A stretch of 38,632 nt of DNA from Cytophagales bacterium (lineage in GTDB: Bacteria > Bacteroidota > Bacteroidia > Cytophagales > Cyclobacteriaceae). The notes under the pieces were generated by a model. That model did not search any database, was not told where the DNA came from, and saw only the letters and a list, made by a program, of their open reading frames with translations. Each line of letters begins with the position of its first letter. The stretch's first letter is position 1. A program made the translations under genes and the position numbers. This document shows, one piece after another, positions 1 through 24,702 of this stretch. The stretch covers positions 1 to 38,632 of the forward strand of contig JADBYQ010000066.1 of NCBI GenBank assembly GCA_020402945.1, in the 5' to 3' direction.

Positions 1-2
1 AG

Positions 3-154: not shown

Positions 155-175
155 GTGTGAACTAAAGTTGGGTTT

Positions 176-485: not shown

Positions 486-570
486 CTTTACATCGCGGTG
501 CAATATTTTAATTGTTCCGCTGTTAATTAGTTTAGAATTGTAAAACTTTCCGGTTAATCAAATAGTCTTA

Positions 571-3058: not shown

Positions 3059-3060
3059 TT

Positions 3061-3636
3061 CTAATAATAGTTTGTTGAAAAAGCTAGGGCATGAAGTGCT
3101 CTGGCTTTTATTTTTTCCAAGTCGACTAGCGGGGTATCTAACTCTTTCGCTTGCTCATCCCAGTACCTCATTTTTATGCTGGTAGCGAAAAGTGGGTCTT
3201 TTTCGAATGCAACAGCTTCACACTCGTTCATCACGCCCCCTTGTAGCTCCAACGTTTTCTTACTGGCCTCAGAAAGGTTTTTGAGATAATCAGGCTGTTT
3301 GTATGTCAAGTAACGCTTTGCTTGGACATGGTTTTCGACCAGTTTCGCAATACGCTCAGAAAACCCTTTCTCGCGCAAAAAATCAGCCCCTATTTTTTCA
3401 TGGCTTTTTGTTCCGAAGCCGCCCATGTCATTCTCTTTGTTTCGACTTACGCAAATGTGCCCTATATCATGAAAGAAGGCTGCCAAAATAACTTCGTCAT
3501 CGTATCCCTCTTTCATGGCTAACGCGGCTGCCTGAGACATGTGTTCGATTTGTGAAACGGGTTCTCCGATGTAGTCTTCGTTGCCGTATTTATCATACAA
3601 CTCAAAAACCTCATTTACAATCGCTTCACTTTTCAT
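3061..3636 (-). CDS. PhnZ-like HD-domain phosphonate oxygenase, 191 aa
   Basis: The protein matches the phosphonate-degradation HD-oxygenase family, mixed-valence di-iron enzymes that use O2 to cleave the C-P bond of 1-hydroxy-2-aminoethylphosphonate, giving glycine and phosphate (PhnZ), or of its trimethylated analogue (TmpB). All expected metal ligands are visible: H32, H56-D57, H79, H103 and D160 (in RYWDEQAK). The Y22-I-G-E25 motif corresponds to the Tyr/Glu induced-fit gate described for PhnZ, and K107 follows the fourth ligand. Length is typical. No partner hydroxylase (PhnY/TmpA, 2-oxoglutarate dependent) is in the window. It is divergent from the phosphonatase-like gene at 3777, with a 140-bp shared promoter region. 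Substrate is inferred, family is firm. Confidence 0.85.
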   Translation of the reverse strand: MKSEAIVNEVFELYDKYGNEDYIGEPVSQIEHMSQAAALAMKEGYDDEVILAAFFHDIGHICVSRNKENDMGGFGTKSHEKIGADFLREKGFSERIAKLVENHVQAKRYLTYKQPDYLKNLSEASKKTLELQGGVMNECEAVAFEKDPLFATSIKMRYWDEQAKELDTPLVDLEKIKARALHALAFSTNYY

Positions 3637-3776
3637 ATTCTCGTCTTTGTTAGTTCGAAGGTACTCAAGATAATTTCTAAGCTGATCTGAGTTTACGTTA
3701 CTAAATAGTTAATTAAGATACTGTTTCGAGGATATGACGAACATTCTCCCATTCTTTGTTTTAAAATTGAACAGCT

Positions 3777-4478
3777 ATGATCGACTTAGTAGTATTTGAC
3801 TTAGCGGGAACAACCGTCAAAGAAAATTTTGATGTGCAGCGCACGCTTAAAAATTCATTTGCCAAGGTAGGGTTGGAAATCTCTATAGAGCAAGCTAGCC
3901 AGGTGATGGGTATTCCGAAACCAATTGCTATACGCCAACTTCTGGAATCATTATACTACGATTCTATTTCTGATGATATCATCAGGGCGATACATGCTGA
4001 TTTCGTAGCGGATATGATTTCATTTTATGAGCAAGACCAAACCGTGGAAGAAAATGAAGGGGTTTCAGAAACATTTCGTCAATTGAAGGCTGCTGGAATA
4101 AAGGTATTTGTTGATACGGGATTTGATCGACCCATTGTAGATGCACTTCTTCAACGAATGGCTTGGGAAAAGAATAAATTAATTGATGGTAGTGTGACAA
4201 GCGATGAAGTAGCTCATGGCCGCCCTCACCCGGATTTAATTTTCAGAGCCATGGAGTTAGCCGGTTTAAGTGACGTGAAGCGCGTAGCCAAGGTTGGAGA
4301 TACGGCTTCGGATTTAGGCGAAGGCAATGCAGCGGGATGCGGCCTCGTAATCGGAATTACAACAGGCGCATTTACACGTGAGCAATTATTATTGACCCCT
4401 CACACTCATTTAATAACCCAAATTCCTGAAGTGCTAGGAATAATTAATTCGCAAGCAGGCGTAGTTTTATATTACTAA
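3777..4478 (+). CDS. Phosphonatase-like HAD hydrolase (TIGR03351 type), 233 aa
   Basis: The N-terminus has DLAGTTV (D8 nucleophile with the DxAGT form specific to phosphonatases, instead of DxDxT). The cap region has MGIPK (K48) where PhnX carries its Schiff-base lysine in MGLLK. The lysine before motif III is replaced by Arg (HGRPHPD), also as in PhnX, and motif III is KVGDTASDLGEG. TIGR03351 is the closest sister family of PhnX and is known to travel with the TIGR03364 FAD oxidase, which is present at 7322. The expected chemistry is C-P cleavage of an aldehyde such as phosphonoacetaldehyde to acetaldehyde and phosphate. The exact substrate of the family is not settled to my knowledge. Confidence 0.87.
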   Translation: MIDLVVFDLAGTTVKENFDVQRTLKNSFAKVGLEISIEQASQVMGIPKPIAIRQLLESLYYDSISDDIIRAIHADFVADMISFYEQDQTVEENEGVSETFRQLKAAGIKVFVDTGFDRPIVDALLQRMAWEKNKLIDGSVTSDEVAHGRPHPDLIFRAMELAGLSDVKRVAKVGDTASDLGEGNAAGCGLVIGITTGAFTREQLLLTPHTHLITQIPEVLGIINSQAGVVLYY

Positions 4479-4513
4479 ATTGTTAACTTCATGTTAATAT
4501 TACTTAACATGAG

Positions 4514-5095
4514 GTGAAAGTTATTCTGTCAAGCCTTCTACTAGCCGTTTCTTGGGTCATTTCGGCCCAACCGAAAATGTTTGATGGGGTGGTTGTGAAT
4601 CATCGCCAAGAGGTTATTCTTGCCAAGGTTGCTGTTGAGACGGCATTCGATGCCGTGATTTTTAAATCAAACTCCGACACAGCCATTTGCTCCATTTTAC
4701 CTGCACACCGTGTAAACTCTTTTCGGTATTTCGACACCACCAGCAATATCAATCGACAATTCATCTCACTGCGCCACGATGGAGCCTACCGATTTTTTGA
4801 GATCGTGGTGTACGGCTCAGTGCAAGTATTGAGAAGGCTGAAACGGGGTGTAAGTCCCTTAGAACCCGATGAGGGAGACGACTATAATTTCTTCTGCTGG
4901 TTTGGAAATGAATTGACGCAAATGAAAAGCTTTAAGTCAACCGTTTTCCCCTTACTTGTTCAGTCGTACGGGAAGGAATTGGAAGATTTTATTAGTCAAA
5001 ATAAATTGCGCCTTCACGATCAAGTTTCTGTTTTTTCCATTGTGAAGAAATGCAACGAACTAAGTCGAAGACAACATCTTGTCGCTACCCGTTAG
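4514..5095 (+). CDS. Exported hypothetical protein, 193 aa
   Basis: It begins at GTG 4514; the ATG at 4509 runs straight into a stop. A cleavable signal peptide ends at about ISAQ (residue 18). The rest has no motif I recognise: alternating strands and helices with IVVYGSVQVLRRLKRG near residues 97-112, an acidic patch after it, and a basic C-terminus. It lies 35 bases after the HAD gene on the same strand and ends 11 bases inside the convergent DUF5690 gene. It is probably co-transcribed with the hydrolase, but nothing in the sequence ties it to phosphonate chemistry. Confidence 0.65.
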   Translation: MKVILSSLLLAVSWVISAQPKMFDGVVVNHRQEVILAKVAVETAFDAVIFKSNSDTAICSILPAHRVNSFRYFDTTSNINRQFISLRHDGAYRFFEIVVYGSVQVLRRLKRGVSPLEPDEGDDYNFFCWFGNELTQMKSFKSTVFPLLVQSYGKELEDFISQNKLRLHDQVSVFSIVKKCNELSRRQHLVATR

Positions 5096-6380
5096 CTAAT
5101 TTCCAATTCTTATGTTTGTAATGAAAATAGATCATTGAGCCAGCGATCAAGAAGGTACCAATTACCGAAACTAAATACCCTCCAGAAATAAAAAAGTTCA
5201 GCCAACTTAGGTTGGCGTAGCCAAATTCTTTAAAGAACAAAACACCCACACTGCCCAGATAGCCAAACGAATCGGCCACGTACATAATGAAGCCAACGGT
5301 GCCGGTGTACTTGAATGCGGCTAAAAGTCGATCAAAGAAAATGCTGTTGAAAGGTATGTAACCAAGATAGAGGCCTAAGCCGATCAAAATCATCCAAAGT
5401 TGTGGACTGATCAGCGACTGCTCAAAAAAGTAATTGGCAACGCCAATTAAAACCAGACCGAAAGCAATCAGGACATGATTGATCATTAGTGCCAGTTTGT
5501 TGTTCTTGATAAGCATCAAGCTGCCCATACAAATTAACACAGCAATGGATATAGGAACTTCTGTTCGCGTGTAAATGGATGGATCGTTTCCGAGCCCTAA
5601 TGACTTCCAAATTTCTGCCGAGAAATTATCTCTAAAATCCCTGAAGGCAGTTAACAATACATACGCTAGCACAAAAAAGATGATCCCTGGCAAAAAAGTA
5701 CTTGTGAATTTTTTTCGTTCTTCACTGTTCATTGGCAACCGCTTGGTGCGCAATTGTTCATCCAATGCCGAGGGGGCAGGAAGTTGGTTGAGTAGATAAA
5801 GAAAGACGACCAACGGAACAAAGAACAAACAGCTGGCCACAAAAGGCATCCAATATTCGGAAGTTCCCCAATCGCGAATGAGGTAGGCGCCCACCGATCG
5901 GCACAAGCCTGCTGAAAAAATAAAACTAACCGATAGTGATGCCCCCAAGACTTCCGTCATACGTCTGCCCTCTAGGTAGCCGAACACCATTCCCCATACC
6001 ATGCCGAGTGGTAGCCCGTTGAAAAATAGAAACACAATATTATAAGGAGCTGGAACTAGCGCAAACAACAGCCACGAGGTTCCTGCTACGCCTACCATCA
6101 GAAGGATTCCCATAGCGCGAGAATGGGCTTTGAGTTCAGAGATGATTTTGATGCCAATAAACTTAGAGAGTGCATAGCCAATCACTTGAAACGTCACCAA
6201 CCAGACTTTATAGTTGATACCCAGAAACATCAAGCCTTCAAATGTAGCCGCGGCAAATGTTTTGCGGAATGCATACACGCACGTGTAAAGGCAAAAGGCT
6301 GCGAGCGATGCGTAGATGGTAAACCAAATGCCGTGAGTATTCTGCAGCCAGTTGGTGATTTTGGAAGATGTGGTTTTCAA
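5085..6380 (-). CDS. DUF5690 family MFS-like permease, 431 aa
   Basis: The product is a polytopic inner-membrane protein with about 12 hydrophobic segments. Its N-terminus, with GIWFTIYASLAAFCLYTCVY followed by AFRKTFAAATFEG, is typical of DUF5690, a Bacteroidota branch of the major facilitator superfamily resembling organophosphate:phosphate antiporters. The loop GMVWGMVFGYLEGRRMTEVLG matches the MFS loop region between TM4 and TM5. Its start codon overlaps the stop of the PHP gene by 4 bases, so the two are co-translated. With phosphonate-type enzymes on both sides it is the best candidate for inner-membrane uptake of an aminophosphonate or organophosphate. This role is inference from context. 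Confidence 0.8.
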   Translation of the reverse strand: MKTTSSKITNWLQNTHGIWFTIYASLAAFCLYTCVYAFRKTFAAATFEGLMFLGINYKVWLVTFQVIGYALSKFIGIKIISELKAHSRAMGILLMVGVAGTSWLLFALVPAPYNIVFLFFNGLPLGMVWGMVFGYLEGRRMTEVLGASLSVSFIFSAGLCRSVGAYLIRDWGTSEYWMPFVASCLFFVPLVVFLYLLNQLPAPSALDEQLRTKRLPMNSEERKKFTSTFLPGIIFFVLAYVLLTAFRDFRDNFSAEIWKSLGLGNDPSIYTRTEVPISIAVLICMGSLMLIKNNKLALMINHVLIAFGLVLIGVANYFFEQSLISPQLWMILIGLGLYLGYIPFNSIFFDRLLAAFKYTGTVGFIMYVADSFGYLGSVGVLFFKEFGYANLSWLNFFISGGYLVSVIGTFLIAGSMIYFHYKHKNWKLANG

Positions 6381-7225
6381 AGGATTATTCCGTTTTCGTT
6401 AAAGGTAAAAGGTTTCCATTCACCTTGGTAAAGAACATGGATTTTTTTAAAACCAATTTCTTGCAGGAGGTTGGCGGTGGTGTCAAATTGGCTAACCAAA
6501 TCATCGGCATGGTGGGCATCGGAGCTGATTGTGATCGGAACGTTTTTTTGTTGAAGTAATTCTAAAATCCACGGACTCGGGTAGGTAGTAGCAGATTTCT
6601 TTTGATAAATGCCTCGCGTGTTCACCTCCACTACCGCGCCTGCTTTTTTGATGGCTTTGATGGTTTCTTTCACTTCGTTCTGGTACCAGCTTTCTTGTTC
6701 GTCAAAGAATTTGTTGTCCGGGTTTTGAATTTTCATTTTGTCGAGGTGGCCTATAATGGTAGGGCAGGCGAGATCAATCATCTCACGCGTCAGCTCAAAA
6801 TAGCGGGTGAAAGCCGCTTGATGATTGTGATGAAAAATCTCATCGAGCCCTTTTAAGAAGACCACATGAAGCCCATCAATTTCCCAAGGGGTGCCGTCTA
6901 CCAAGGCATCGACAAAATGAATGGAACCAATCGTATAGTCCAGTTGGTCGCGGAAGTCGTTTGGCGAAACCCGAGTCGGTACATAGTCTACCTCTAGGCC
7001 TGCATAAATCTCTATTTCTTTTGTAGTTGTTTTCAGTTTTTTGATGGATTCAAGATACAATCCCAACTTTTCTTGATCCATGCACCACTGACAATCAAAC
7101 GGAACCGGGGCGTGCGAAGAAAAACCTAAGCTTAATAGATCTAATTCTTTAGCTTGTTGAATTTGCTCTTCGAGTGTACTTTTTCCATCGCAGTAGTTCG
7201 TGTGAGTATGAAAGTTAGACCACAT
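6377..7225 (-). CDS. PHP-domain phosphatase (histidinol-phosphatase HisJ-like), 282 aa
   Basis: The N-terminal NFHTHTNYCDGKS (H6, H8) is PHP motif I. GLEVDYVP (about 77-84), IIGHLDKMK (about 164-172) and the C-terminal ISSDAHHADDL complete a trinuclear metal site as in HisJ. Length is normal for HisJ (about 270 aa). HisJ removes phosphate from L-histidinol phosphate, but no other his gene is nearby. The gene is translationally coupled to the DUF5690 permease and follows the FAD oxidase after a repeat-rich 96-base gap. A phosphomonoesterase acting on an intermediate of organophosphonate or organophosphate use is as plausible here as histidine synthesis. Confidence 0.8.
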   Translation of the reverse strand: MWSNFHTHTNYCDGKSTLEEQIQQAKELDLLSLGFSSHAPVPFDCQWCMDQEKLGLYLESIKKLKTTTKEIEIYAGLEVDYVPTRVSPNDFRDQLDYTIGSIHFVDALVDGTPWEIDGLHVVFLKGLDEIFHHNHQAAFTRYFELTREMIDLACPTIIGHLDKMKIQNPDNKFFDEQESWYQNEVKETIKAIKKAGAVVEVNTRGIYQKKSATTYPSPWILELLQQKNVPITISSDAHHADDLVSQFDTTANLLQEIGFKKIHVLYQGEWKPFTFNENGIIL

Positions 7226-7232
7226 CTTTTCA

Positions 7233-7328
7233 ATTTGAAGATTTGAAAATTAGTTAATTTGAAAATGAAATGCTAAACATTCTACCAAGCATCATTTTCA
7301 AATCTTCAAATCGATTCATTTTCAAATT
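7233..7328. repeat. Two overlapping inverted repeats built from a TTTGAAAAT-type module
   Basis: A perfect 18-bp inverted repeat has arms 7233-7250 and 7294-7311. A second perfect 14-bp inverted repeat has arms 7256-7269 and 7315-7328. Both use variants of the same module (ATTTGAAAAT). Their arms interleave, so only one hairpin can form at a time. The second right arm runs into the stop of the FAD gene. The block may act as a transcript-processing or attenuation structure between the FAD gene and the PHP/DUF5690 pair, or it may be a drifting intergenic repeat. Confidence 0.75.
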
Positions 7329-8473
7329 AGTTTTTTAATACTCGCCTCCGCATAGCCAGCCGAAGTGGTCATGCCTTTTCCGCCAATGGCAGTTCGGATA
7401 TGTATTTTATCTTCGATGTCAATCTCCACAATGTCTTTTTCATTATGCTGCGGATAAAAGCCTGACCAGGCAGTTGCAATTTTAGTTACGTCAAAGTTGA
7501 CAATGCGTTGGGCTTCATTTAGCATTAACTGGTTGATGTATTCATTTTGTGCAAATCCCAAGTCATCGGTATGGTTCACGTCAGCGTATTCGTGCGAGTC
7601 ACCAATAATAATCGAGCCATCCATTGCTTTTTTAAAGAGAATGTGAATTCCCCATTTCTTCAATTCGATCAAATGGTCGGGTGTCTTTATGTTTTCATAT
7701 GAAGCGCACTCTTGAAATGACTCATACCTCCTAATGGTCAGGCCTGTTAATATGTTGCCTTCCAGCGCCACCGTCTGCATGGGAATCGAACGCAGCATTT
7801 GCAGTTTACTGGTCACAATTCCACTTTGCTTAAAAAGGTCAGGAAACAATAATTTGAATTCACCGCCATTGCAAACGATGACTTTATCGGCTTTAAAAAC
7901 TTCCTTTAAGTTAGAAGTTACATTGACGTGATCTCCAGAAATGGTGCAGTCTATTATTGTCCTTGCTGGTCGATAGGTGAGGTTCTGAAATTGCTGAGTC
8001 ACGTAAGTCAGTAAGTTGAAAATCATTTTCTCCGGCTCTGCACTCACCTCTTGTGGAAAAAACAATGCCTCTTTGCAATAGTTGCCATTTAACGCTGGCC
8101 ACTTTTCCAGACATTGATGTGTATTGAGCAGTTCTGCCTGATAGTCGCGAGTGTCCATCATCGCCTTCAATTCATGGATTAGTTGTTGTTCATCGTTATC
8201 TGACGCGATGTAAACACTTCCATTGTTTCTGATGGAGATATCATATTCATTCTGGATCTGATTGTAGATAGCGGTACCCCTCACGCCATAGTCGAACCAA
8301 TCCGCGCCCATGCCGGATGGCACCACCTGACCGAAATTTCGAACGGTCGCTTGGGTAGGGAATTGATCCTTCTCAACCAGCAAAACTTCTTTGCCGAGTT
8401 TAGCGGCATGGTAAGCGTGAAATGTCCCTAGCACTCCGGCACCGACAACAATAACGTCAAAATGATTCTTCAT
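7322..8473 (-). CDS. TIGR03364-type FAD-dependent amine oxidase of phosphonate clusters, 383 aa
   Basis: This is a DAO-superfamily flavoprotein. The Rossmann motif VVGAGVLGTFHAYHAAKLG with VLLVEKD is at residues 9-35. The stretch TVRNFGQVVPSGMG after it is characteristic of the TIGR03364 clade, which is known to be syntenic with the phosphonatase-like TIGR03351 HAD, found here at 3777. The C-terminal FAD segment AIGGKGMTTSAGYAE is present and length is normal. The expected reaction is oxidative deamination of an aminoethylphosphonate (or an N-methyl derivative) to phosphonoacetaldehyde, which would feed the HAD enzyme and replace the missing PhnW transaminase. It heads the leftward unit FAD-PHP-DUF5690. 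The clade is firm, the substrate is inferred. Confidence 0.85.
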   Translation of the reverse strand: MKNHFDVIVVGAGVLGTFHAYHAAKLGKEVLLVEKDQFPTQATVRNFGQVVPSGMGADWFDYGVRGTAIYNQIQNEYDISIRNNGSVYIASDNDEQQLIHELKAMMDTRDYQAELLNTHQCLEKWPALNGNYCKEALFFPQEVSAEPEKMIFNLLTYVTQQFQNLTYRPARTIIDCTISGDHVNVTSNLKEVFKADKVIVCNGGEFKLLFPDLFKQSGIVTSKLQMLRSIPMQTVALEGNILTGLTIRRYESFQECASYENIKTPDHLIELKKWGIHILFKKAMDGSIIIGDSHEYADVNHTDDLGFAQNEYINQLMLNEAQRIVNFDVTKIATAWSGFYPQHNEKDIVEIDIEDKIHIRTAIGGKGMTTSAGYAEASIKKLI

Positions 8474-8638
8474 TTTTTAACTCGTAATTTTCTCAAGTTG
8501 GTTAATTGGTATTATTAAACTGTTAATCAAACAAGAATTCTTTTCACAAAAGCTGTGTAAATGAAGAGCTAATAAAATATAAAGCTGTCATCGTAAATTG
8601 ATGAATGGAAAGACGATATTCCAACTAATTAAAAATAC

Positions 8639-8646
8639 TACATTTG
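8639..8646 (+). promoter_or_regulatory. Possible Bacteroidota -7 element upstream of the phosphatase gene
   Basis: TACATTTG matches the Bacteroidota -7 consensus TAnnTTTG, 48 bases before the ATG at 8694. No good -33 TTG is seen at the right distance, so this is a weak call. The 220-bp gap 8474-8693 must hold the divergent promoters for the FAD oxidase and the phosphatase. Confidence 0.3.
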
Positions 8647-8693
8647 ATCGATTGATTGTTGTGTTTTCTTAAACCAAATTTCCTTACACCCTC

Positions 8694-9995
8694 ATGAATA
8701 GATTCATCTTGCTCGTTTGTTTACTTTTTCTAGCCATAACATCGTTTTCACAATCTCTGGATATTATCAGAGGCCCTTATTTAAATAGCGTATCATCCAC
8801 TTCAGCGGTTATTCGTTGGCGAACTGAAAAGCCTACCGATAGCAAAGTGTTCTTTTCCACCGACCGCTTTAAAGTTGAGCAGGCCAGTGTGGTAAGTGAG
8901 GCCGAGCTAGAAACAGATCATGAACTTGTTATTTCTGGTCTTTCTCCTGCCACCAAGTATTTTTACTCAGTGGGTGCTAATAGCGCCAAACCGAAAATGT
9001 ACGAAGACCAATTTTTGGTAACTGCGCCACCAGTAGGATCTACTTCACCGCTGCGCATTTGGGCACTAGGCGATTTTGGCGATGGTTCAACCAATCAACT
9101 TAATTGTCGTGACGCGATCATTAAAGAAACGACCGATCACCGACCGGATGCGTGGCTTTGGCTAGGCGATAATGCCTATAACATTGGCTTGGATGATGAG
9201 TATCAGCGCCATGTTTTTAGAGTTTATCAGGAGAGCTTTTTTAAGAATACAAATCTTTATCCTTCTCCCGGCAATCATGATTACGGAAAAGCAAAACGCA
9301 ATCCGACCGATGTTTCGTACTTTAAAATATTCACGATGCCTAAGGACGGAGAGGCTGGGGGAATCCCTTCCGGGTCGGAATCTTATTACGCAGTTGATTT
9401 TGGAAACGTACACTTGATTTCTCTGGATTCACAAGGTGAATTGGATGGAGGGTTTCGAATTTATGATACGTTAAGCAAACAGATTACCTGGTTGAAGAAA
9501 GATTTGACGGCCAATAAACTGCCTTGGACTATTGTTTACTTTCACCATCCTCCCTATACGAAGGGATCGCACGATTCTGATCGCGAGAATGAATTGGTGA
9601 AGATCAGAGAAAATTTACTTACCATTCTTGAGCGTTTCAAGGTCGACTTGGTTTTGACTGGCCATAGCCACGTGTACGAGCGCACTCATCCACTTCGCGG
9701 TCACTATGGCGAAGCCAACACGTTTGATCCTACAAAGCATGTTGTTGAAAAGAAGGATTCACCGAATAACTACCGTGTTGGAAAAGAAGGTCAAGGAGTA
9801 ATCTACATTGTAAGCGGTTCAGGTGGCCAGGTGGGCGGCCAGGCGGAGGGGTACCCGTTACGGGCGGCTACTTATTATAATACAACGGTCGGTGGTTCAC
9901 TACTGATGGATTTCAATGACAATCGATTAGATGCAAAATGGATTTGTGCTGACGGACAAGTAAGAGATAGATTTTCGATTACGAAGGAAAAGTAG
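8694..9995 (+). CDS. Secreted purple-acid-phosphatase-like metallophosphoesterase, 433 aa
   Basis: A signal peptide (residues 1-20, ending SFSQ) is followed by a fibronectin-like N domain (about 22-112, with SAVIRWRT and LSPATKYFYSVG), then a calcineurin-type domain. All metal motifs are present: GDFGDG (about 126), WLGDNAYN (about 158), GNHDYG (about 193), YFHHPPY (about 282) and GHSHVYERTHPL (about 322). This is the purple acid phosphatase arrangement, so the enzyme should release phosphate from phosphomonoesters outside the cytoplasm. It has its own promoter region, divergent from the FAD oxidase, and ends 36 bases before the convergent regulator gene. Confidence 0.9.
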   Translation: MNRFILLVCLLFLAITSFSQSLDIIRGPYLNSVSSTSAVIRWRTEKPTDSKVFFSTDRFKVEQASVVSEAELETDHELVISGLSPATKYFYSVGANSAKPKMYEDQFLVTAPPVGSTSPLRIWALGDFGDGSTNQLNCRDAIIKETTDHRPDAWLWLGDNAYNIGLDDEYQRHVFRVYQESFFKNTNLYPSPGNHDYGKAKRNPTDVSYFKIFTMPKDGEAGGIPSGSESYYAVDFGNVHLISLDSQGELDGGFRIYDTLSKQITWLKKDLTANKLPWTIVYFHHPPYTKGSHDSDRENELVKIRENLLTILERFKVDLVLTGHSHVYERTHPLRGHYGEANTFDPTKHVVEKKDSPNNYRVGKEGQGVIYIVSGSGGQVGGQAEGYPLRAATYYNTTVGGSLLMDFNDNRLDAKWICADGQVRDRFSITKEK

Positions 9996-10031
9996 TTTCT
10001 ACACGTTCCACTTCAGCCATTTTTTTGGTCG

Positions 10032-10607
10032 CTATTTCACCGTTAAAAAGTAAAAGACCAGCATAGTCACTTTCCGTTTTGTATTATTCACAGGGTAATG
10101 CGGCTTAGACGCATCAAAGTAAATGGAATCGCCCTCGCGCAATGCTATTTTCTCATCTTGAATATAATAGTCGCAATCACCTGACACTACATACTTGAAC
10201 TCAAAGCCGTCAGTGGTGGTAGCTTTACTTTTAGATTTTGGTTTGATCGACAATAAAACAGTCTCCATCGTACATCCCTGAAGAGATTGAGCCAGGATGA
10301 ATCTATAGTCGAACCCAGGGCGATTCTCTTTTTTAATGTGTTTGTATTCTTTTCGTTTGATATGAAGATAGTTTTGACTGCTAGCGGCTGAAAGCGTATC
10401 GAAAAAGTCTTGCGGTTTTATCTCCAGCGCATTCATTATGTTGAATAAAACAGGGACGGACGGAATGGTTCTTGAGTTTTCTATTTTAGAGATCAGCCCT
10501 TTCGTTAAGTTAGTGCGTTCACTCAGTGTTTGCAGTGTAAGGCTCTTTTCATTTCGTAACATCTTGATTCTTTTGGCAATAAGGGGAATCAGCTCTTCTT
10601 GTACCAT
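10032..10607 (-). CDS. XRE-family regulator with C-terminal cupin domain, 191 aa
   Basis: An XRE helix-turn-helix occupies about residues 10-64 (LQTLSERTNLTKGLISKIENS, a SinR-like pattern), followed by a cupin sensor domain (about 115-190, with YVVSGDCDYYIQDEK and SIYFDASKPHYPVNN). The frame opens at a TTG at 10631, but that lies inside a palindrome. The ATG at 10607, preceded by AGGA, is the better start. Regulators of this build often control amino-acid, betaine or phosphonate use by binding a small ligand in the cupin. It is divergent from susC, with the palindrome at 10625-10645 between them. Confidence 0.85.
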   Translation of the reverse strand: MVQEELIPLIAKRIKMLRNEKSLTLQTLSERTNLTKGLISKIENSRTIPSVPVLFNIMNALEIKPQDFFDTLSAASSQNYLHIKRKEYKHIKKENRPGFDYRFILAQSLQGCTMETVLLSIKPKSKSKATTTDGFEFKYVVSGDCDYYIQDEKIALREGDSIYFDASKPHYPVNNTKRKVTMLVFYFLTVK

Positions 10608-10624
10608 AGTCGTTTGTTTCCTAT

Positions 10625-10645
10625 TTGTCAACTTTCTGTTGACAA
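10625..10645. promoter_or_regulatory. Perfect palindromic operator candidate for the XRE-cupin regulator
   Basis: TTGTCAAC and GTTGACAA form perfect 8-bp arms around TTTCT. The site lies 18 bases before the chosen ATG of the regulator and contains a TTGACA word on each strand. Position and symmetry fit binding by an XRE dimer that represses its own gene and perhaps the divergent susC operon. No second copy was noticed elsewhere in the window by eye. Confidence 0.6.
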
Positions 10646-10848
10646 TGCAAGCTATCGCGCAAGTATGAACTTATTGTTATTGAAAAGATATCTTTATTTC
10701 ACTTCCAATGGCCGTTTTTCCATATTGACTTTAAGCGAGTGTGAATATTTTTTTTTTCACTCCTGTATTCTTAACCGATCAATAACCTACGTCTAAACTC
10801 TACATCAATTGTTAAATCAATCTTTGGGCAAGCTAAGCATGGAATGAC

Positions 10849-14262: not shown

Positions 14263-14277
14263 TCCTTTATTAAAATA

Positions 14278-14339
14278 GAATTCGGAAACGATTGATGCTC
14301 GATGTTTAGAGCGGAAAAAAGTTCCTCGTTTCAGAATTC
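14278..14339 (+). repeat. Inverted repeat between susC and susD
   Basis: Arms 14278-14291 (GAATTCGGAAACGA) and 14326-14339 (TCGTTTCAGAATTC) pair over 14 positions with one mismatch, around a 34-base loop. It occupies most of the 93-base gap between the two genes. No T-run follows, so it is not a classic terminator. It could stabilise or process the transcript and set the SusC to SusD ratio. Confidence 0.6.
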
Positions 14340-14355
14340 AAAAAATAAATAACAA

Positions 14356-15873
14356 ATGAAAAACTTAAAGAAATTTATTGTCGCGTTCGTTGCCGTCTTT
14401 ACAGTATTTTCCTGTGATGAGGGCTTTGAAGAGATTAACACGAACCCAAACGTGCCCACGACTGTGACACCAGACTTGCTTTTATCTGGTGTGATCAGAA
14501 ACACCATAAATGATCAAGTGAATGAAGCCTGGAGCATTGGCAATATTGTCGTGCAGCATACCGCTAAAATTCAGTTCGTAAACGAAGATCGTTACTTATG
14601 GGGTGAACGTTCTGGTGTGTGGAACAGTGTTTATGGAAATCTAAGAAATGTACAAAACATCATTGCGGCTTCTGAAGCAGCAAAGCCTGTACAAAATAAC
14701 TATCTAGGTATCGCGTTGATTTTGAAGTCGTGGATGTTCTCTGTTGTGACCGATACCTACGGAGACGTTCCCTACATCGATGCAACAAAAGGGAAATCAT
14801 CAGCGATTTACACTCCCAAGTATGATGCGCAAGAAACCATTTACAACGGAATCTTAGCAGATTTGAAAAGAGCAAATGAGATACTCGGCACGAGTTCAGA
14901 AACTGTTTCAGGAGACTTGATTTACAATGGTAATGTTGCACAATGGAAGAAGCTTGCTAATTCTCTTCGACTTCGCTACCTAATGCGCATATCAAACAAG
15001 CGAGATGTAAAAGCCGATATGCAAGCGATTTTGGATAATGCCTCTCAAAACCCTGTGTTTATCGGCAATGCAGACAATGCTGCTTTGGTTTATCAATCTG
15101 CTGCGCCAAATCAATGGCCTTTATATACAGCCAGAGTTGGTTCGTTTGATGAATTTAGATTAAGCAAAACAATGAGTGATTATTTGACTAGCATCGGAGA
15201 TCCGCGTTTGCAGGTTTTTGGTCGCCCGACTGAAGCCTCCGTAGCTGCAGGAACTCCGATAGTACAAGGAATACCTAATGGCCTTGAAGATACGCAAGCA
15301 CTAAGTTTTAATGGTGGTCCGCAAGGTGTTTCACGAGTAGGCTTAACGTTTGCATGTTTGGTTTGTAGCTCACCTGCACCTGTAGCTAATGCTTCCAGAG
15401 GATTGATAATGACTTTTTCAGAAGTTCAATTTATTCTGGCCGAAGCACGTGAGAAAAACCTAATAACTACGGGTGTTGCGGAGACTTATTATACAAATGG
15501 AATAAATGCCAATTTCGATTTTTATAGAGCGATCGTTCCTTCCTCGTATGGGATAAGCCTCACGCTGCCGGCAAATTATTTTACGCAGCCAAGCATTGCA
15601 TATGCAGGTACTCAGGCACAAAAATTGAACTTAATTGCACGGCAAAAGTGGGTGGCGCTTTTCTTCAATGGTTTAGAGGCTTGGGCAGATTGGAGAAGAT
15701 CTGGACTACCTGCGCTAACACCCGGTGCAGGAAATTTGAACAATAATTTAATTCCAGTGCGTTACATCTATCCTCAATCCGAACAGTCTTTAAACGGAGC
15801 AAATCGTGCTGAAGCAGTTGGTCGGCAGGGTGCTGATGATATCAATACTCAAGTTTGGTGGGATAAAAATTAG
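14356..15873 (+). CDS. SusD/RagB-family lipoprotein (SusD-like_2), 505 aa
   Basis: The signal peptide has lipobox FSC (Cys about residue 20), followed by the SusD-like opening DEGFEEINTNPN. The helical TPR-type body includes SWMFSVVTDTYGDVPYIDA and RLRYLMRISN, and the C-terminus has RQKWVALFFNGLEAWADWRRSG and YPQSEQ, both typical of the SusD-like_2 branch. The protein is the surface lid that captures ligand for SusC. It is immediately downstream of susC and followed by a strong terminator, so susCD forms its own unit. Ligand unknown. Confidence 0.93.
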   Translation: MKNLKKFIVAFVAVFTVFSCDEGFEEINTNPNVPTTVTPDLLLSGVIRNTINDQVNEAWSIGNIVVQHTAKIQFVNEDRYLWGERSGVWNSVYGNLRNVQNIIAASEAAKPVQNNYLGIALILKSWMFSVVTDTYGDVPYIDATKGKSSAIYTPKYDAQETIYNGILADLKRANEILGTSSETVSGDLIYNGNVAQWKKLANSLRLRYLMRISNKRDVKADMQAILDNASQNPVFIGNADNAALVYQSAAPNQWPLYTARVGSFDEFRLSKTMSDYLTSIGDPRLQVFGRPTEASVAAGTPIVQGIPNGLEDTQALSFNGGPQGVSRVGLTFACLVCSSPAPVANASRGLIMTFSEVQFILAEAREKNLITTGVAETYYTNGINANFDFYRAIVPSSYGISLTLPANYFTQPSIAYAGTQAQKLNLIARQKWVALFFNGLEAWADWRRSGLPALTPGAGNLNNNLIPVRYIYPQSEQSLNGANRAEAVGRQGADDINTQVWWDKN

Positions 15874-15916
15874 TTCAACAACAAATAATACTTGCTAGGT
15901 GTTTTTTTAATCAATT

Positions 15917-15948
15917 TCCGGGGCTCTGAAAAGACCCCGGATTTTTTT
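15917..15948 (+). terminator. Rho-independent terminator after susCD
   Basis: The stem TCCGGGG/CCCCGGA (15917-15923 with 15935-15941) is followed by a run of seven T. An inner TCT/AGA can extend the helix around a GAAA loop. It ends the susCD transcript before the next gene starts at 15978. Confidence 0.9.
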
Positions 15949-15977
15949 AACCCTTTTTTTACTGATAATTCTACAGA

Positions 15978-18719
15978 ATGATAAGAAACTACTTTTGTGT
16001 GCTTTGCTTTGCTTTGTTAATCGCTTGTCAGCCCGAAAGAAGAAAGGTCAAGGTATTGCAAGTGCCGGGTGTCAATGAATACGCGGTCATTAACGCAAAG
16101 GGAAATTCAGTATTGCCCAGCGGCAGATACGTCACGCCCGCGGGCGAAACGATTCGCATTGATCGAGCCCCGTACGGCTTGAGTATATCGCCTGACGGAA
16201 AGAAGGTACTCGTTCTACATCACAACGGAACGGTTACCATTTCTGATGCTTTCAACTTAAATACCAGCGTCCGCATTCCAAGTTTTGATAAAAAAATAGC
16301 GCCCGTGATGGAAGGCGCATCGTTTCTGGGAGCCGCTTTTTCAGCAGATTCTAAACTGGCCTACTTGAGTGGAGGCGATCTTGGCAAAATAGTTGTGTTG
16401 GATGTACTCACCTATAGAAAAGTTGACCAGATCAACTTGAATGGCGTTTTCGAGGGAGTTGACTATCAAGAAAGTTTTACGTCTGATTTGGCGATCGACT
16501 ATGACCGCAATGAATTGTTCGCATTAGATCGGGCGAATAACCGATTGGTAAGAATTGATTTACAATCGAAAAAAATTATTGCTTCTGTAAAAGTAGGACG
16601 GATTCCATTTGGTATTGCATTAAGCAAGGATAAAAAGTATGCGCTTGTTGCGAATGCAGGATTATTTGAATACCCCGCAGTGCCGGGCGTTACCAAAGAA
16701 AACCGTGATACGATGATGTTGGAGAAACCTCCTTATGGTACTTTCTCGAAGGAGATGGAAGATGGTGTGGAGGTGGAGGGAAGAAAAATACCCGGCCTTG
16801 GAAGTGCTCTAGTCCCTGAAGCAATGAGTGTGTGGACAATTGATCTAGCATCTAATAGAGTAATTGATCGGCATAAAACGGGTCTTCAGATTGGTCAACT
16901 GATCGAAGGAGCAGAAATTGTGGGCGGGGCAAGTCCCAATTCTATTGTGGTGGGAACAAAGTATGCCTATGTTTCCAATGCCACCAACGATAATATTTCA
17001 GTTATCGATTTAGAGAATCATTCTATCAAAGAAGAAATTCCAATTCTAGTCGATGAGCGAATAGATAAATACCGCGGCCTTACACCTTTTGGATTGACAT
17101 TAAGCAAAGATGAGCAAACGTTGTACGTTGCCCTGCTAGGCTTTAATGCCGTGGCTGTGATGGATACGCAAACGAAAAAAACAAAGGGATTGATCCCAAC
17201 GGGATGGGGTGCTACTCGTGTGAAGCTTTCCCCTGACGAAAAGAAACTATACATCATTTCTGCAAGAGGTCATGGTGCCGGCCCTAACGGGGGAGCGGAT
17301 TTTGAAGAGCCACCGCAAGGCACATACATTGGCGACATTCAATTAGGAACTTTACAAGAGGTAGATGTACCTACAGATGAGCAACTAAAGCGCTACACCA
17401 GTCAGGTGCTTACCAATACTTTTCGCGAAGTTGACATAGAGGATGACGGAAAAAACCCGTTGCCGCCTCTGCCGAAACTTCGCGAAAGCCCAATCAAGTA
17501 CATTGTGTACATCAATAAAGAAAATCGTACTTACGATGAAGTATTCGGCCAACTAAAAAATGGAAAGGGCGATTCAACCTTAGCGCGCTTTGGAGTTGAT
17601 GTCGCCTATACACTGCCGGATTCGATGAAAAATAAATTTCAAGGATTGAAGGTCATGCCCAATCACCACAAGCTTGCCAAACAATTTTCCTACTCTGATA
17701 ACTTCTATTGCGATTCTGACGCTTCCATTCATGGGCATCATTGGTTGGCAGGTGTTATTCCCAACGAGTATGTCGAAGCCAATTCTTCATCGAAAGGTAG
17801 TTTTAATACTTTTTCATCGGCACCGGGCAGGCGGTTTCCCAAATCAACTGGGGCGATTGACCCGGAAGACTACAATGAGATTGGTGGGATGTGGGAAGCG
17901 CTGGAAAGAAATAAGGTTTCGTTTTATAGCTTCGGAGAAGGCAACGAATATGCGGGTGTGTGGGAGGAGTGGAATCATACTTCTTTTGGTGCCCGTCAGC
18001 CCGTTGTGTTCCCGATGCAAAATGCGCTCTATAAAAATACCTCCTGGAACTATGCTGGCTTCAATATGAATATTCCAGATCAGTATCGAATGGATCAATT
18101 CGACGAGGAGTTTACCAGCCGATGGATCAAAGGAAACGAAAAAATGCCCAGCCTGATTGCCATGCAAGTACCAAACGATCACGGTTCAGATCCAAGGCCC
18201 GCAGCAGGATTCCCCTTTGTACATTCATTTATGGCAGATAATGATTTGGCGATTGGTCGGATTCTTCATTTCCTGTCACGCACAAAGTATTGGAAGAATA
18301 TGCTGGTGATCATGATGGAAGATGATCCCCAAGGCGGGGTAGACCACATTGACGCACATCGATCTGTGTTGATGATGGCGAGTCCATACATTAAGCGTGG
18401 CTATGTTTCTCATGCGCATGCGAATTTTGGTTCACTGGTCAAGATAGTGTACAATATTTTGAACGTGCCGTATGTAAATCAGTATGATGCAACGGCTTCC
18501 TTGCTGCAAGATTTTTTTACCGACAAGCCCGACTTTACGCCTTATTCACTAGAACCTTGTGATCTTCGTATCTTCGATCCTCAAAAAGCCATGGATGTCT
18601 ATCATAAGACTTTTGATATGAAGAAAATTATGGCTGGGCCAGAAATGGATGACGAAGCCGAACAACGTAGTTCGTTTTATCAGCAACACCCAAAGCGAAA
18701 CGATATTTCCAAAAAATAA
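15978..18719 (+). CDS. Lipoprotein with YncE-like beta-propeller fused to phosphoesterase domain, 913 aa (copy 1)
   Basis: The lipobox LIAC (Cys17) predicts an outer-membrane or periplasmic lipoprotein. Residues about 60-460 hold YVTN/YncE-like repeats (PYGLSISPDGKKVLVL, PFGIALSKDKKYALVANAG, PFGLTLSKDEQTLYVALLG). Residues about 505-870 are an alkaline-phosphatase/phospholipase-C-like domain with ENRTYDEVFGQL (about 513), NFYCDSDASIHGHHWLAG, VPNDHGSD and DDPQGGVDHIDAHRS, the usual metal and nucleophile region of the phosphoesterase family. The paralogue follows at 18739. The likely activity is hydrolysis of phosphodiesters or monoesters outside the cell; the actual substrate is unknown. Confidence 0.88.
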   Translation: MIRNYFCVLCFALLIACQPERRKVKVLQVPGVNEYAVINAKGNSVLPSGRYVTPAGETIRIDRAPYGLSISPDGKKVLVLHHNGTVTISDAFNLNTSVRIPSFDKKIAPVMEGASFLGAAFSADSKLAYLSGGDLGKIVVLDVLTYRKVDQINLNGVFEGVDYQESFTSDLAIDYDRNELFALDRANNRLVRIDLQSKKIIASVKVGRIPFGIALSKDKKYALVANAGLFEYPAVPGVTKENRDTMMLEKPPYGTFSKEMEDGVEVEGRKIPGLGSALVPEAMSVWTIDLASNRVIDRHKTGLQIGQLIEGAEIVGGASPNSIVVGTKYAYVSNATNDNISVIDLENHSIKEEIPILVDERIDKYRGLTPFGLTLSKDEQTLYVALLGFNAVAVMDTQTKKTKGLIPTGWGATRVKLSPDEKKLYIISARGHGAGPNGGADFEEPPQGTYIGDIQLGTLQEVDVPTDEQLKRYTSQVLTNTFREVDIEDDGKNPLPPLPKLRESPIKYIVYINKENRTYDEVFGQLKNGKGDSTLARFGVDVAYTLPDSMKNKFQGLKVMPNHHKLAKQFSYSDNFYCDSDASIHGHHWLAGVIPNEYVEANSSSKGSFNTFSSAPGRRFPKSTGAIDPEDYNEIGGMWEALERNKVSFYSFGEGNEYAGVWEEWNHTSFGARQPVVFPMQNALYKNTSWNYAGFNMNIPDQYRMDQFDEEFTSRWIKGNEKMPSLIAMQVPNDHGSDPRPAAGFPFVHSFMADNDLAIGRILHFLSRTKYWKNMLVIMMEDDPQGGVDHIDAHRSVLMMASPYIKRGYVSHAHANFGSLVKIVYNILNVPYVNQYDATASLLQDFFTDKPDFTPYSLEPCDLRIFDPQKAMDVYHKTFDMKKIMAGPEMDDEAEQRSSFYQQHPKRNDISKK

Positions 18720-18738
18720 AACTAATCCTTACCTCAAA

Positions 18739-21540
18739 ATGAACTACTCGAGAATTTTCCTGACGCTGATCTCTGTACTGATTCTATCTGCCTGTGCAGA
18801 CAAAAAGGAAACGGACTCAAAGAAAATTTGGATTGCCTCCGCCCCAGCGGGCGATCGCTATACCAAAATTGATCGGGCGGGAGAAACCATACTCCCCAAC
18901 GGTCGGATCATCACACCGACCGGAAAACAAGTAACCGTTGCGCCCCATCCGTTTGGGTTAACCTTAAGTCCAGATGGAAAAACAATCATCACGGCCAATT
19001 CCGGTGTGGGACCATTTTCAATTTCCATTATTGACGATTATACCTCAACTGCGCCAATAGTAAAGCAAATTCCGGAAACACTCAATCCAGAGAAGGGACT
19101 GCTTGAGGCTACGTTCATGGGTTTGGCCATTTCTCCAGACGGACAGAAAGTGTATGTGGCAGGCGGGCAACAGAATAGAATTTATGTTTTTGATTTGAAG
19201 ACCAATAAGAAATTAGCAGAGATCAATTGCAACAAAACGTTTGACGGAACGGACTATAGCGATGGCTACATTGGCGACATGGCATTGAGCAAAGATGGAT
19301 CGAAGTTGTATGCGGTCGATCAAATCGGATTTCGCATGATGGTAATCGACACAAAAACCAATCAAGTTATTCACAATGTAAAAACAGGTCGCTATCCTTT
19401 TGGCATAACCCTTTCGCCTGATGAAAAGACAGTCTATGTGGCCAATGTAGGGATGTTTGAGTATTCGTACATCAAAAGTTTGGATAAGAAAAGTCTTAAT
19501 GAAACCGCGGCTAAATTTCCCACTTCCGCTTACGGCTCCAAAGAAATGAAAGAAGGAGTGAAGAGCGATTCGATTGAATTTGCTGGATTAGGCGATCCGA
19601 ATGCACCCGAATCATTTTCAGTGTGGAGCATTGATGTGAGCAATGAAATTCCAGCTGTAACTTCGAAAGTGAAAACAGGTGTGCTGGTGGGAGAGGAGAT
19701 TGACGGGATTTCTGCCGTGGGTGGATCGAGCCCAAATTCGATGGTAGCTACGGATCAATTTGTGTACGTGAGCAATGGAAACAACGATAATATTTCCGTC
19801 ATCAATGCAAAGCAGAATAAAGTGGTGGAGAGCATCGAATTGAAATTGGATGAACGGCTAGCAAGTTTGAAAGGAGTGATCCCATTTGGTTTAACCATTT
19901 CTCCCGATCAAAAAAGATTATATGTAGCGGAAGCAGGCGTCAACGCTGTCGCGGTAGTTGATTTAGATTCTAAGAAAGTTCTAGGTCACATTCCAACCGG
20001 TTGGTTTCCCTCCAAGCTGAAGGTTACGCCTGATGGTAAGCAGTTGATCGTATCCAATGCCAAAGGCTTTGGTAGCGGACCTAATGGAGGAAAAGACTTC
20101 AAGCCGCCTTTTGATCATCCCTACGCCAGTTACATTGGTGCACTGATGCTGGGCACGGTTTCAATCATTGATATTCCCGCGGACGCGGAATTGAAAGCCC
20201 TCACCGAAAAAGTAGTCGCCAATAATTTTAGTTTCAAAGAAGTTGCCTCTGTGGAAAGCGAGAATCCAATTCCCTCATTTCCCAAGGCGAAAGAGTCTCC
20301 GATCAAATACATCGTCTTTATTTCAAAAGAAAACAGAACCTACGATGAGGTGTTTGGCCAGCTTCAAAATGGAAAGGGAGATTCTTCGCTCGCTCATTAC
20401 GCCAAAGATGTTTCGTTCACCAACAAAAAGAAAACGATGAAGGTGGAGAACGCTACTGTGATGCCCAATCATTTGGCATTGGCCGAGCAATTTACCATCA
20501 GCGATAATTTTTATGTCGACTCGGATGTGTCGGCCGATGGGCATGTGTGGTTGACCAACACCTATCCTAATCAATGGATGGAAACCCACCATCCTGCCTC
20601 TTATGGTGGCAAGCGTAGTCAGCGAGAAGAATCAAAAGCGCCCGGCAAATTTGGTATGACGGGTGCTGCCGGGGCGATTTTTCCCGAGAGCTACAACCAA
20701 GCGGGGTCTATGTGGGAAAACTTGGAAAGACATGGAAAAGAGTTTTACAATTTTGGGTTTGGAGTTGAGTTCGATGCAGGTGGTTTTTCAGATTCCACTT
20801 TTAAATATGGTGGCGTTCGTTACCTCGCGAATTATCCGTTGCCAGGGCCGTTGTACAATCGCACCTCCCGTTTGTTCCCGACCTTTAATATGGCAATCCC
20901 CGATCAATTCCGTACTGACATCTTTGTGAAGGAGATCACAGAAAAGTATATCAATCCAAAAAAGGAACTGCCTTCTGTGTTGACACTTCAACTGCTGAAT
21001 GACCACGGAGCAGGTGAGCGCGCAGCGGCTGGGTTTGCATTCAATGAAAGTTATATGGCCGATAATGATTTGGCATTAGGCAGAGTGATTGAATTTTTGA
21101 GCCATACTGAGTATTGGAAGAATATGATGATCGTTGTTACGGAAGACGATGCACAGGGCGGTCGCGATCACATTGACGCCCACCGAAGCATTCTCATGGT
21201 GATCTCTCCTTATGCCAAGAAGAATTTCAATAGTCATCAGCACTTTAGTTTCGGAAGTATTTTCAAAACATTTTGGAATGTGTTGGGCACTTCCTATCTG
21301 AATCAATATGATTTTGGGGTGAATGATCTAAGCGATTGCTTCACCAGCAAACCAGATTTTACACCCTACAATGCGTTGCCAGTTGATCCACGAATATTTG
21401 ATCCCACAAAAGCGATGTCGCCACTTGATGAAAAGTTTGATTGGAAAGCCTTTCGCGATTCGCCAGAACTGGACGATCCTGAGGATATGAAAGAAAATGC
21501 GAAAAGAAAAGACGATGGTAGGACAAAAGTAAATCACTAA
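18739..21540 (+). CDS. Lipoprotein with YncE-like beta-propeller fused to phosphoesterase domain, 933 aa (copy 2)
   Basis: The architecture is as in the preceding gene, with lipobox LSAC (Cys19), propeller repeats (PFGLTLSPDGKTIITANSG, PFGITLSPDEKTVYVANVG) and ENRTYDEVFGQL near residue 532. Metal-region motifs follow: NFYVDSDVSADGHVWL, LNDHGAGERAAAG and EDDAQGGRDHIDAHRS. The frame is open from 18649 inside the previous gene, but the ATG at 18739 puts a proper lipoprotein signal at the N-terminus and leaves 19 bases between genes. The two copies have clearly diverged (for example GHHWLAG versus GHVWLTN), so they may act on different substrates rather than being a recent duplication. Confidence 0.9.
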   Translation: MNYSRIFLTLISVLILSACADKKETDSKKIWIASAPAGDRYTKIDRAGETILPNGRIITPTGKQVTVAPHPFGLTLSPDGKTIITANSGVGPFSISIIDDYTSTAPIVKQIPETLNPEKGLLEATFMGLAISPDGQKVYVAGGQQNRIYVFDLKTNKKLAEINCNKTFDGTDYSDGYIGDMALSKDGSKLYAVDQIGFRMMVIDTKTNQVIHNVKTGRYPFGITLSPDEKTVYVANVGMFEYSYIKSLDKKSLNETAAKFPTSAYGSKEMKEGVKSDSIEFAGLGDPNAPESFSVWSIDVSNEIPAVTSKVKTGVLVGEEIDGISAVGGSSPNSMVATDQFVYVSNGNNDNISVINAKQNKVVESIELKLDERLASLKGVIPFGLTISPDQKRLYVAEAGVNAVAVVDLDSKKVLGHIPTGWFPSKLKVTPDGKQLIVSNAKGFGSGPNGGKDFKPPFDHPYASYIGALMLGTVSIIDIPADAELKALTEKVVANNFSFKEVASVESENPIPSFPKAKESPIKYIVFISKENRTYDEVFGQLQNGKGDSSLAHYAKDVSFTNKKKTMKVENATVMPNHLALAEQFTISDNFYVDSDVSADGHVWLTNTYPNQWMETHHPASYGGKRSQREESKAPGKFGMTGAAGAIFPESYNQAGSMWENLERHGKEFYNFGFGVEFDAGGFSDSTFKYGGVRYLANYPLPGPLYNRTSRLFPTFNMAIPDQFRTDIFVKEITEKYINPKKELPSVLTLQLLNDHGAGERAAAGFAFNESYMADNDLALGRVIEFLSHTEYWKNMMIVVTEDDAQGGRDHIDAHRSILMVISPYAKKNFNSHQHFSFGSIFKTFWNVLGTSYLNQYDFGVNDLSDCFTSKPDFTPYNALPVDPRIFDPTKAMSPLDEKFDWKAFRDSPELDDPEDMKENAKRKDDGRTKVNH

Positions 21541-21574
21541 ATATTCTAGATTTAAGATTCAGAATTTGGTTTCT

Positions 21575-21635
21575 ACAAACTTGAAACTTGAATCTTGAGT
21601 TTTGAATCTTGAACTTTAAATCTTGATCTTTGAAT
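21575..21635. repeat. Degenerate tandem repeat of a TTGAATCTTGA-like unit
   Basis: The gap before the TonB-dependent receptor gene is built of imperfect copies of (A/C)TTGAATCTTGA, about 10-14 bases each. It has no coding sense. The block resembles the module block at 7233-7328 in style and is common-looking intergenic filler for this phylum. It may hold the promoter of the receptor gene. Confidence 0.6.
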
Positions 21636-21646
21636 CGTCCACATGC

Positions 21647-24588: not shown

Positions 24589-24702
24589 AATTGATTGGGT
24601 TAGAATTTTCCTTCTTAATCCGCAATCGAAGATGGAGTCACGAGTTATTTAGGATTTATGTTTTGTAATTTGTGGTTTAAGTTTCCGGTTTCCAGTTAGC
24701 CG

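Follow-up and report, generated by a model that had tools for sequence, protein, structure and literature searches.

A SusCD-centred locus of a Cytophagales bacterium as a probable phosphate utilisation system for aminophosphonates

A stretch of 38,632 nucleotides from a Cytophagales bacterium of the family Cyclobacteriaceae (GenBank assembly GCA_020402945.1, contig JADBYQ010000066.1, positions 1..38,632 of the forward strand), hereafter the window, carries a SusCD-centred locus at positions 3061–21540, which we consider likely to be a phosphate utilisation system (PUS) that scavenges aminophosphonates. In this scheme, SusCD would import small phosphorus compounds across the outer membrane for carbon–phosphorus (C–P) bond cleavage in the cytoplasm. 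Harvesting of phosphorus from phosphonates is probable because the pairing of SusCD with C–P genes recurs in many relatives (G and L numbers below denote genomes and loci, respectively). Genes were called from open reading frames (ORFs) combined with family-model scans (Pfam and NCBIfam) over 3061–21540, and the whole gene inventory of the original prediction was recovered at its positions and confirmed by family models.

The central pairing is that of the SusC-type TonB-dependent transporter (10849..14262, plus strand; TIGR04056, 644.6 bits, cut-off 368) with a FAD-dependent aminophosphonate oxidase of the PbfD type (7322..8473, minus strand). The latter is the C–P-related assignment that lies well above its cut-off (TIGR03364, 344.3 bits versus 285.1). 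The oxidase was detected above cut-off in 19 of 58 relatives and, within the window's own genus, in 15 of 36 genomes, with SusC adjoining it in all 13 that could be evaluated. In G017 and G029, the contig ends on the SusC side of the oxidase, and a SusCD pair of clade A (see below) is found on another contig in both. An even draw of 296 Bacteroidota genomes yielded the oxidase in 23 at E ≤ 1e-80, of which 20 loci were examined with wide flanks, the remaining three being those of G000, G045 and G278. SusC was located within 8 kb of the oxidase in 10 of the 20 loci (13 with a looser BLAST search over the whole stretch), and DUF5690 and the phosphonatase-like HAD hydrolase were each present at 14; SusC is also present at the G000 locus. 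Conservation of SusCD beside phosphonate genes, on which the original prediction had staked its reading, is therefore present in relatives. As a control, 20 other amine-oxidase genes of the own genus were inspected, none of which had SusC within 8 kb (nearest, 8.3 kb). The comparison of 10/20 with 0/20 gives a Fisher p of 4.4e-4, ignoring kinship and with own-genus paralogues as controls against test loci from the whole phylum; in two of the control stretches, L199 (7.8 kb) and L184, one flank is short. Neighbourhood labels were assigned by BLAST with proteins from the window and its relatives rather than by per-gene hidden Markov models. The pairing of SusC with the oxidase is not due to chance. 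A locus from another family of the class (L165) carries nearly the window's set, in the order SusC, SusD, propeller phosphoesterase, phosphodiesterase, PhnHD, HAD, DUF5690 and oxidase.

Gene content was further tabulated for 80 named loci, which are the best 80 by similarity to the oxidase alignment rather than a random sample; contig ends truncate 14 of them. At distances of up to 8 kb from the oxidase, these loci encode DUF5690 (72), SusC (52), the XRE-cupin protein (44), SusD (41), the phosphonatase-like HAD (36), PhnA (15), PhnY (15), PhnHD (11) and PHP (10), and SusC occurs jointly with a C–P-cleaving gene at 37. Secreted phosphoesterases of several types were found by BLAST within 10 kb at 44 of the 52 SusC-bearing loci. 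In 15 of the 80 loci, from Pedobacter, Mucilaginibacter and others, PhnY and PhnA replace the HAD; SusC is present in 13 of these and, in 12, its gene stands upstream of those for PhnA, PhnY and the oxidase, and the four share a strand. Each of the two assignments, covering 15 cluster members apiece, rests on the scoring of one representative, which reached 499 bits for PhnA (phosphonoacetate hydrolase; curated cut-off 408) and 665 bits for PhnY (phosphonoacetaldehyde dehydrogenase; curated cut-off 636). In the established pathway, PhnY acts on phosphonoacetaldehyde and PhnA on phosphonoacetate, substrates that fit the phosphonoacetaldehyde product reported for the PbfC/PbfD oxidases. The oxidase and SusCD are thus constant and the C–P-cleaving part is variable, which is strong evidence that the module handles compounds of the 2-aminoethylphosphonate (AEP) type.

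Two types of TIGR03364 oxidase, approximately 30% identical, share the same gene context within one genus; that of L002–L005 (G017, G015, G029 and G026) scores 400–432 bits and the window type 339–358 bits. Separately, L255 (G182) combines SusCD, a phosphodiesterase, PhnHD, PhnA and PhnY with a different amine oxidase and DUF5690, and that genome has no TIGR03364 match at E ≤ 1e-80, which suggests an AEP route with another oxidase.

The SusD-type lipoprotein (14356..15873, plus strand; PF12771, 342 bits) was placed in a tree of 83 rows, in which two clades take up 52 of the 53 oxidase-locus rows and seven label changes are needed, compared with 24.9 in shuffles. Phosphonate rows were defined by the oxidase locus, so that the second SusD of L110 was counted among them, and the 30 other rows derive from the own order only, comprising high-scoring PF12771 matches, duplicates and special cases rather than a full census. 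Clade A, to which the window belongs, has 17 rows: 12 from oxidase loci plus those of G011, the split loci of G017 and G029, G052, whose SusCD sits near a propeller phosphoesterase, and G047. Clade B (support 100/99) has 41 rows from at least six families, 40 of them from oxidase loci and one beside PhnHD. Both clades occupy the same site within the own genus. Profiles of the two clades were searched against the 296 genomes, with at most five candidates scored per genome. The clade-B profile set apart 12 matches at 495 bits or more, the next reaching 398, and C–P genes are adjacent in nine: six matches are linked to the oxidase, those of G045 and G155 to PhnHD plus a propeller phosphoesterase, and that of G182 to PhnA, PhnY, PhnHD, another amine oxidase and DUF5690. 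Because this profile was built partly from genomes that were searched (G206, G304, G269 and G257), a separate count was made without them, which gave five of eight. The clade-A profile set apart four matches at 819 bits or more (G000, G106, G347 and G259), all oxidase-linked, which constitute no test because all are rows of that profile; the next matches (G254, G250 and G203; 540–552 bits) have no C–P gene in the stretches covered.

Two further enzymes of the window belong to families of C–P bond cleavage. The PhnZ-like HD-domain oxygenase (3061..3636, minus strand), close to the PhnHD family, scores 213.3 bits against TIGR03276, 1.3 below the curated cut-off of 214.6, and its residues 7–174 of 191 align with PhnZ (PDB 4mlm) at E 3.6e-48. 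Residues H32, H56, D57, H103 and D160 are identical in 14 of 14 aligned sequences and H79 in 13; we take these six to be the HD metal-site residues. The phosphonatase-like HAD hydrolase (3777..4478, plus strand) is close kin to TIGR03351 rather than a formal member, as its score of 213.6 bits lies below the cut-off of 218.9, and its 110.7 bits against the phosphonatase PhnX model TIGR01422 do not reach the cut-off of 220. Its residues D8, A10 and K48 are unchanged in 37 of 37 aligned sequences, that of the window included. All three align to PDB 2iof, and K48 falls on a residue that is lysine there and arginine in 2ioh; this position is presumably that of the phosphonatase Schiff-base lysine, with D8 as the nucleophilic aspartate and A10 as the alanine two positions after it. 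The own genome, 99.9% complete, has no match to PhnW at E ≤ 1e-40 and none to PepM, which suggests that the oxidase would replace PhnW and that the locus is catabolic. PhnW-like genes do occur elsewhere in G011, G017, G026 and G028, none above cut-off, and at the PhnW-like loci of the first three none of the query genes is present. Those of G017 and G026 (L251 and L252, respectively) share a neighbourhood of another kind than SusCD around the aminotransferase gene, which may perhaps reflect phosphonate biosynthesis.

The DUF5690 protein (5085..6380, minus strand; PF18943, 553 bits) is a predicted inner-membrane carrier of the major facilitator superfamily (MFS), with a fold nearest to that of phosphate-ester antiporters. 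Its predicted structure (predicted local distance difference test, pLDDT, 89) has 12 long helices and the MFS fold of the GlpT/UhpT/G6PT antiporters, with human G6PT/SLC37A4 and GlpT (PDB 1pw4, E 1e-5) among the best fold matches. A search by sequence alone gave no PDB match among solved carriers. The hhalign probability was 26.8% against three organophosphate:phosphate antiporters and 3.5% against GlpT alone, versus 0.3% for ProP and 0.1% for GalP. GlpT binds phosphate through arginine and lysine residues of helices 1 and 7. In a weak alignment, R39 and K73 of DUF5690 lie opposite R45 and K80 of GlpT; R247 and R250, possible counterparts of GlpT R269, are invariant in 71 of 71 sequences. NCBIfam gives weak matches to MCR-2 in 4 of 20 members, which are probably spurious.

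Downstream of SusD, two lipoproteins combine a YncE-like propeller with a PF04185 phosphoesterase domain (copy 1, 15978..18719; copy 2, 18733..21540; both plus strand) and are 44% identical. The whole-protein PF04185 scores of 26.5 and 27.5 bits, respectively, exceed the gathering score of 23, although no single stretch passes alone. The copy-2 ORF spans 18649–21540, with 18733 as the likely true start. SusD and both propeller proteins have lipoprotein-type signal peptides at the N-terminus of their translations, and the lipobox cysteine is invariant in the copy-2 family (20 of 20 aligned); all three may sit at the cell surface. The predicted structure of the propeller protein has a mean pLDDT of 58, with an unusable catalytic domain. 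Collinearity with L062 runs through the window from 293 to 15957 at 95.7% identity and resumes at 18823, with 88.6% identity to the end of the overlap. The intervening stretch, 15958–18822, is unmatched and corresponds to copy 1, in place of which L062 and L063 have a 361-residue PF01663 phosphodiesterase. Close strains therefore exchange this whole gene while the cytoplasmic part is kept. The gene for a secreted metallophosphoesterase resembling purple acid phosphatase (PAP-like; 8694..9995, plus strand; PF00149 and PF16656) is a lineage-specific insertion; of the 80 named loci, just L062 and L063 have it in this position.

The proposed mechanism follows from these assignments. The two propeller phosphoesterases would cut larger molecules to free small phosphonates or organophosphates. 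SusCD would import these across the outer membrane with energy from TonB, and the G6PT/GlpT-like DUF5690 carrier would pass them through the inner membrane, phosphate probably leaving in return. Once in the cytoplasm, AEP and N-methyl-AEP may be converted by the TIGR03364 oxidase to phosphonoacetaldehyde, to be cleaved by the phosphonatase-like HAD to acetaldehyde and phosphate, and the PhnZ-like enzyme may oxidise 1-hydroxy-AEP to glycine and phosphate. The XRE-cupin protein (10032..10631, minus strand; PF01381 and PF07883), divergent from susC, is the putative regulator. Gene content, its conservation, the catalytic residues and the predicted fold are shown directly by the analysis; the enzymatic and transport steps, their order and the macromolecular source, which may be a phosphonolipid, a phosphonoglycan or a teichoic-type polymer as originally predicted, are our inference. 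A palindrome at 10684–10695, between the XRE-cupin gene and susC, was sought in 28 loci; just three have a counterpart in the corresponding gap, namely L062 and L063, each with one mismatch, and L066, with two.

Several observations weigh against aminophosphonate scavenging as the function of the locus. In 28 of the 80 named loci and 10 of the 20 phylum-draw loci, no SusC was detected within 8 kb of the oxidase, and the 12 loci of Sphingobacterium yielded none at all. SusC is likewise missing from the stretches covering the oxidase loci of G039, G045 and G051, which lie outside the genus (G045 at a contig end); in G052, the oxidase contig spans only 5.2 kb. The G278 locus, with an oxidase below cut-off, comprises XRE-cupin, HAD, DUF5690 and phosphoesterases without SusC. 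Conversely, the clade-B SusCD pairs of G064, G308 and G324 have no nearby C–P gene, the first having only a phosphodiesterase as neighbour and the other two nothing recognisable. Both the HAD and the PhnHD protein of the window score slightly below their curated cut-offs, the window encodes no PhyH-type hydroxylase as a possible supplier of substrate to the PhnZ-like oxygenase (there are four PhyH genes elsewhere), and comparison of promoter gaps revealed no conserved regulatory site, with no shared word of 10 or more bases among the four gaps compared. Finally, DUF5690 occurs in 37 of the 58 relatives compared with 19 for the oxidase, and among 20 oxidase-free DUF5690 sites a PF01663-type phosphodiesterase is near seven, PHP near three and a propeller phosphoesterase near one. 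At the same site as in the window, G011 (L237, contig 187) has SusC, SusD, phosphodiesterase, propeller protein, DUF5690 and PHP without the oxidase, which is found above cut-off nowhere in that genome, where a PhnW-like gene lies elsewhere. Approximately 260 bases after DUF5690 this contig stops, and HAD or PhnHD may therefore be encoded in the sequence that would follow; the G022 site is likewise cut close to DUF5690.

The last observations are those expected if SusCD, the phosphoesterases, DUF5690 and the PHP-domain phosphatase of the HisJ family (6377..7225, minus strand; TIGR01856, 133.3 bits, cut-off 90.2) formed a general locus for importing phosphate esters such as phosphodiesters, with the C–P genes as separate passengers and phosphonates entering by another way. 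We regard this as a serious but clearly less probable explanation. The G011 locus and the oxidase-free sites favour it, as do SusCD pairs with a c6 phosphodiesterase and no C–P gene in G064, G341 and G329. Of the 20 oxidase-free DUF5690 sites, those of G005 and G019 are truncated on the side expected to hold SusC, and the remaining 18 have SusC only in G002 and G033, both less than 27% identical. However, SusC was found at just 3 of 19 evaluable oxidase-free sites (counting three from beyond the genus and second DUF5690 copies of genomes that have the oxidase; two of the SusCs being the divergent ones), versus 13 of 13 own-genus genomes beside the oxidase. Moreover, clade-B SusDs follow C–P genes across families, and 12 of the 15 PhnA/PhnY loci have SusC upstream of these two genes and the oxidase gene, on the same strand. 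The original assignment of the locus to phosphorus-containing molecules stands as regards SusCD with cytoplasmic C–P cleavage, but part of the locus resembles a module for organophosphates in general because DUF5690 and phosphodiesterases are commoner than C–P genes and occur without them, as in G011. In our view, the organophosphate module is the older part, and the C–P genes entered it or settled beside it, usually together with SusCD.

An ordinary polysaccharide utilisation locus with phosphonate genes adjacent by chance is highly improbable. SusCD pairs are usually glycan systems and some of the oxidase loci have no adjacent SusC, but no Pfam glycoside hydrolase or sulfatase was detected in 28 window ORFs (minor overlapping ORFs excluded), in agreement with the original prediction, and neither the recurrence, set against 0 of 20 control loci, nor the clustering of SusD is expected from chance adjacency. 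Equally remote is the possibility that, instead of scavenging, the locus breaks down or recycles phosphonolipids or phosphonoglycans made by the cell itself. The sub-cut-off PhnW-like genes in G011, G017, G026 and G028 speak for it, and the missing PepM against it, since the nearly complete own genome thereby has no known route for making C–P bonds.

More tentatively, and with somewhat less than even probability, Bacteroidota may have evolved dedicated phosphonate loci. These would combine two SusCD lineages specialised in lipids or glycans that bear phosphonates, interchangeable cassettes of phosphoesterases (PF01663, propeller-PF04185 and calcineurin-like), DUF5690 as an aminophosphonate/organophosphate:phosphate antiporter, and exchangeable C–P modules (phosphonatase-like, PhnY-PhnA and PhnZ-like). 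If so, intact phosphonoconjugates would be edible that lie beyond the reach of users of free AEP, the SusCD toolkit would widen from glycans and phosphate esters to C–P compounds, and DUF5690 would gain a testable function. Named culturable strains of Pedobacter, Mucilaginibacter and Dyadobacter allow direct testing.

Among the other features of the window, hyp193 (4514..5095, plus strand) gave no Pfam or NCBIfam match; its translation has a signal-like N-terminus, and homologues are retained in some own-genus loci. A heme/siderophore-type TonB-dependent receptor identified by family scans (21623..23908, plus strand) is of uncertain membership in the locus and is retained near the copy-2 propeller homologue in G025, G027 and G034. 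The site is flanked by kelch/DUF4270 genes on one side and TonB/ECF sigma genes on the other, with the same markers in several relatives. IS1380-type transposase fragments occupy three separate ORFs at 25764–27035 beside an ECF sigma gene, and a PLD-domain protein with two PLDc_2 stretches is encoded outside the locus (35034–36200, minus strand).

No description of a locus that joins SusCD to a TIGR03364 oxidase or to DUF5690 was found in the titles and abstract openings of the top-ranked literature matches, and the word DUF5690 appeared in no paper of the literature searched. For Flavobacterium, an orphan low-phosphate lipoprotein, Fjoh_3414, is tabulated with its InterPro entries (PMC8115612, in part). 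We take these entries to be propeller-type. In E. coli glpQ-glpT, an extracytoplasmic diesterase, the periplasmic GlpQ, works alike beside a glycerol 3-phosphate:phosphate antiporter, whose fold that of DUF5690 resembles; however, that system has no outer-membrane SusCD, and DUF5690 has no significant sequence match to GlpT. The AEP transporters AepXVW, AepP and AepSTU share with the window the proposed uptake of AEP, according to the available part of their description, but include no system of the outer membrane, a term which, like TonB, is absent from the text (PMC8316502), whereas the window has SusCD.

On the enzymatic side, the available part of PMC10590968 reports that PbfC/PbfD oxidases convert N-methyl-AEP, and PbfD also AEP, to phosphonoacetaldehyde, that PbfD1 of A. 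baumannii carries the TIGR03364 annotation, and that homologues occur in the FCB group, which takes in Bacteroidota. Its AEP clusters, like the window, place such an oxidase beside a phosphonatase-type HAD without phnW; they differ in that the portion at hand mentions no SusCD, and in that the window HAD is TIGR03351-like rather than PhnX and is joined by a PhnZ-like oxygenase. For Pedobacter, the accessible text of a genome comparison reports phnA for two genomes of P. glucosidilyticus and a complete AEP pathway for none of the Pedobacter genomes compared (PMC4642753), to which the oxidase-PhnY-PhnA loci of other Pedobacter species add a route unlisted there. The closest relative is the PUS (PusCD) of Flavobacterium, in which SusCD is co-localised with phosphoesterases and phosphonate-degrading enzymes (PMC8115612, in part), an idea repeated in PMC8812569 (in part). 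PUS loci with unspecified phosphonate genes are already known in that genus, so the original view that no SusCD system of such composition had been described was too strong. The likeness lies in SusCD with phosphoesterases or phosphonate enzymes and without CAZy hydrolases. The two systems belong to different genera; induction by phosphate depletion was demonstrated in Flavobacterium, and the excerpted description of the PusCD cluster names no TIGR03364 oxidase, DUF5690 or propeller phosphoesterase (PMC8115612), all three of which the window has.

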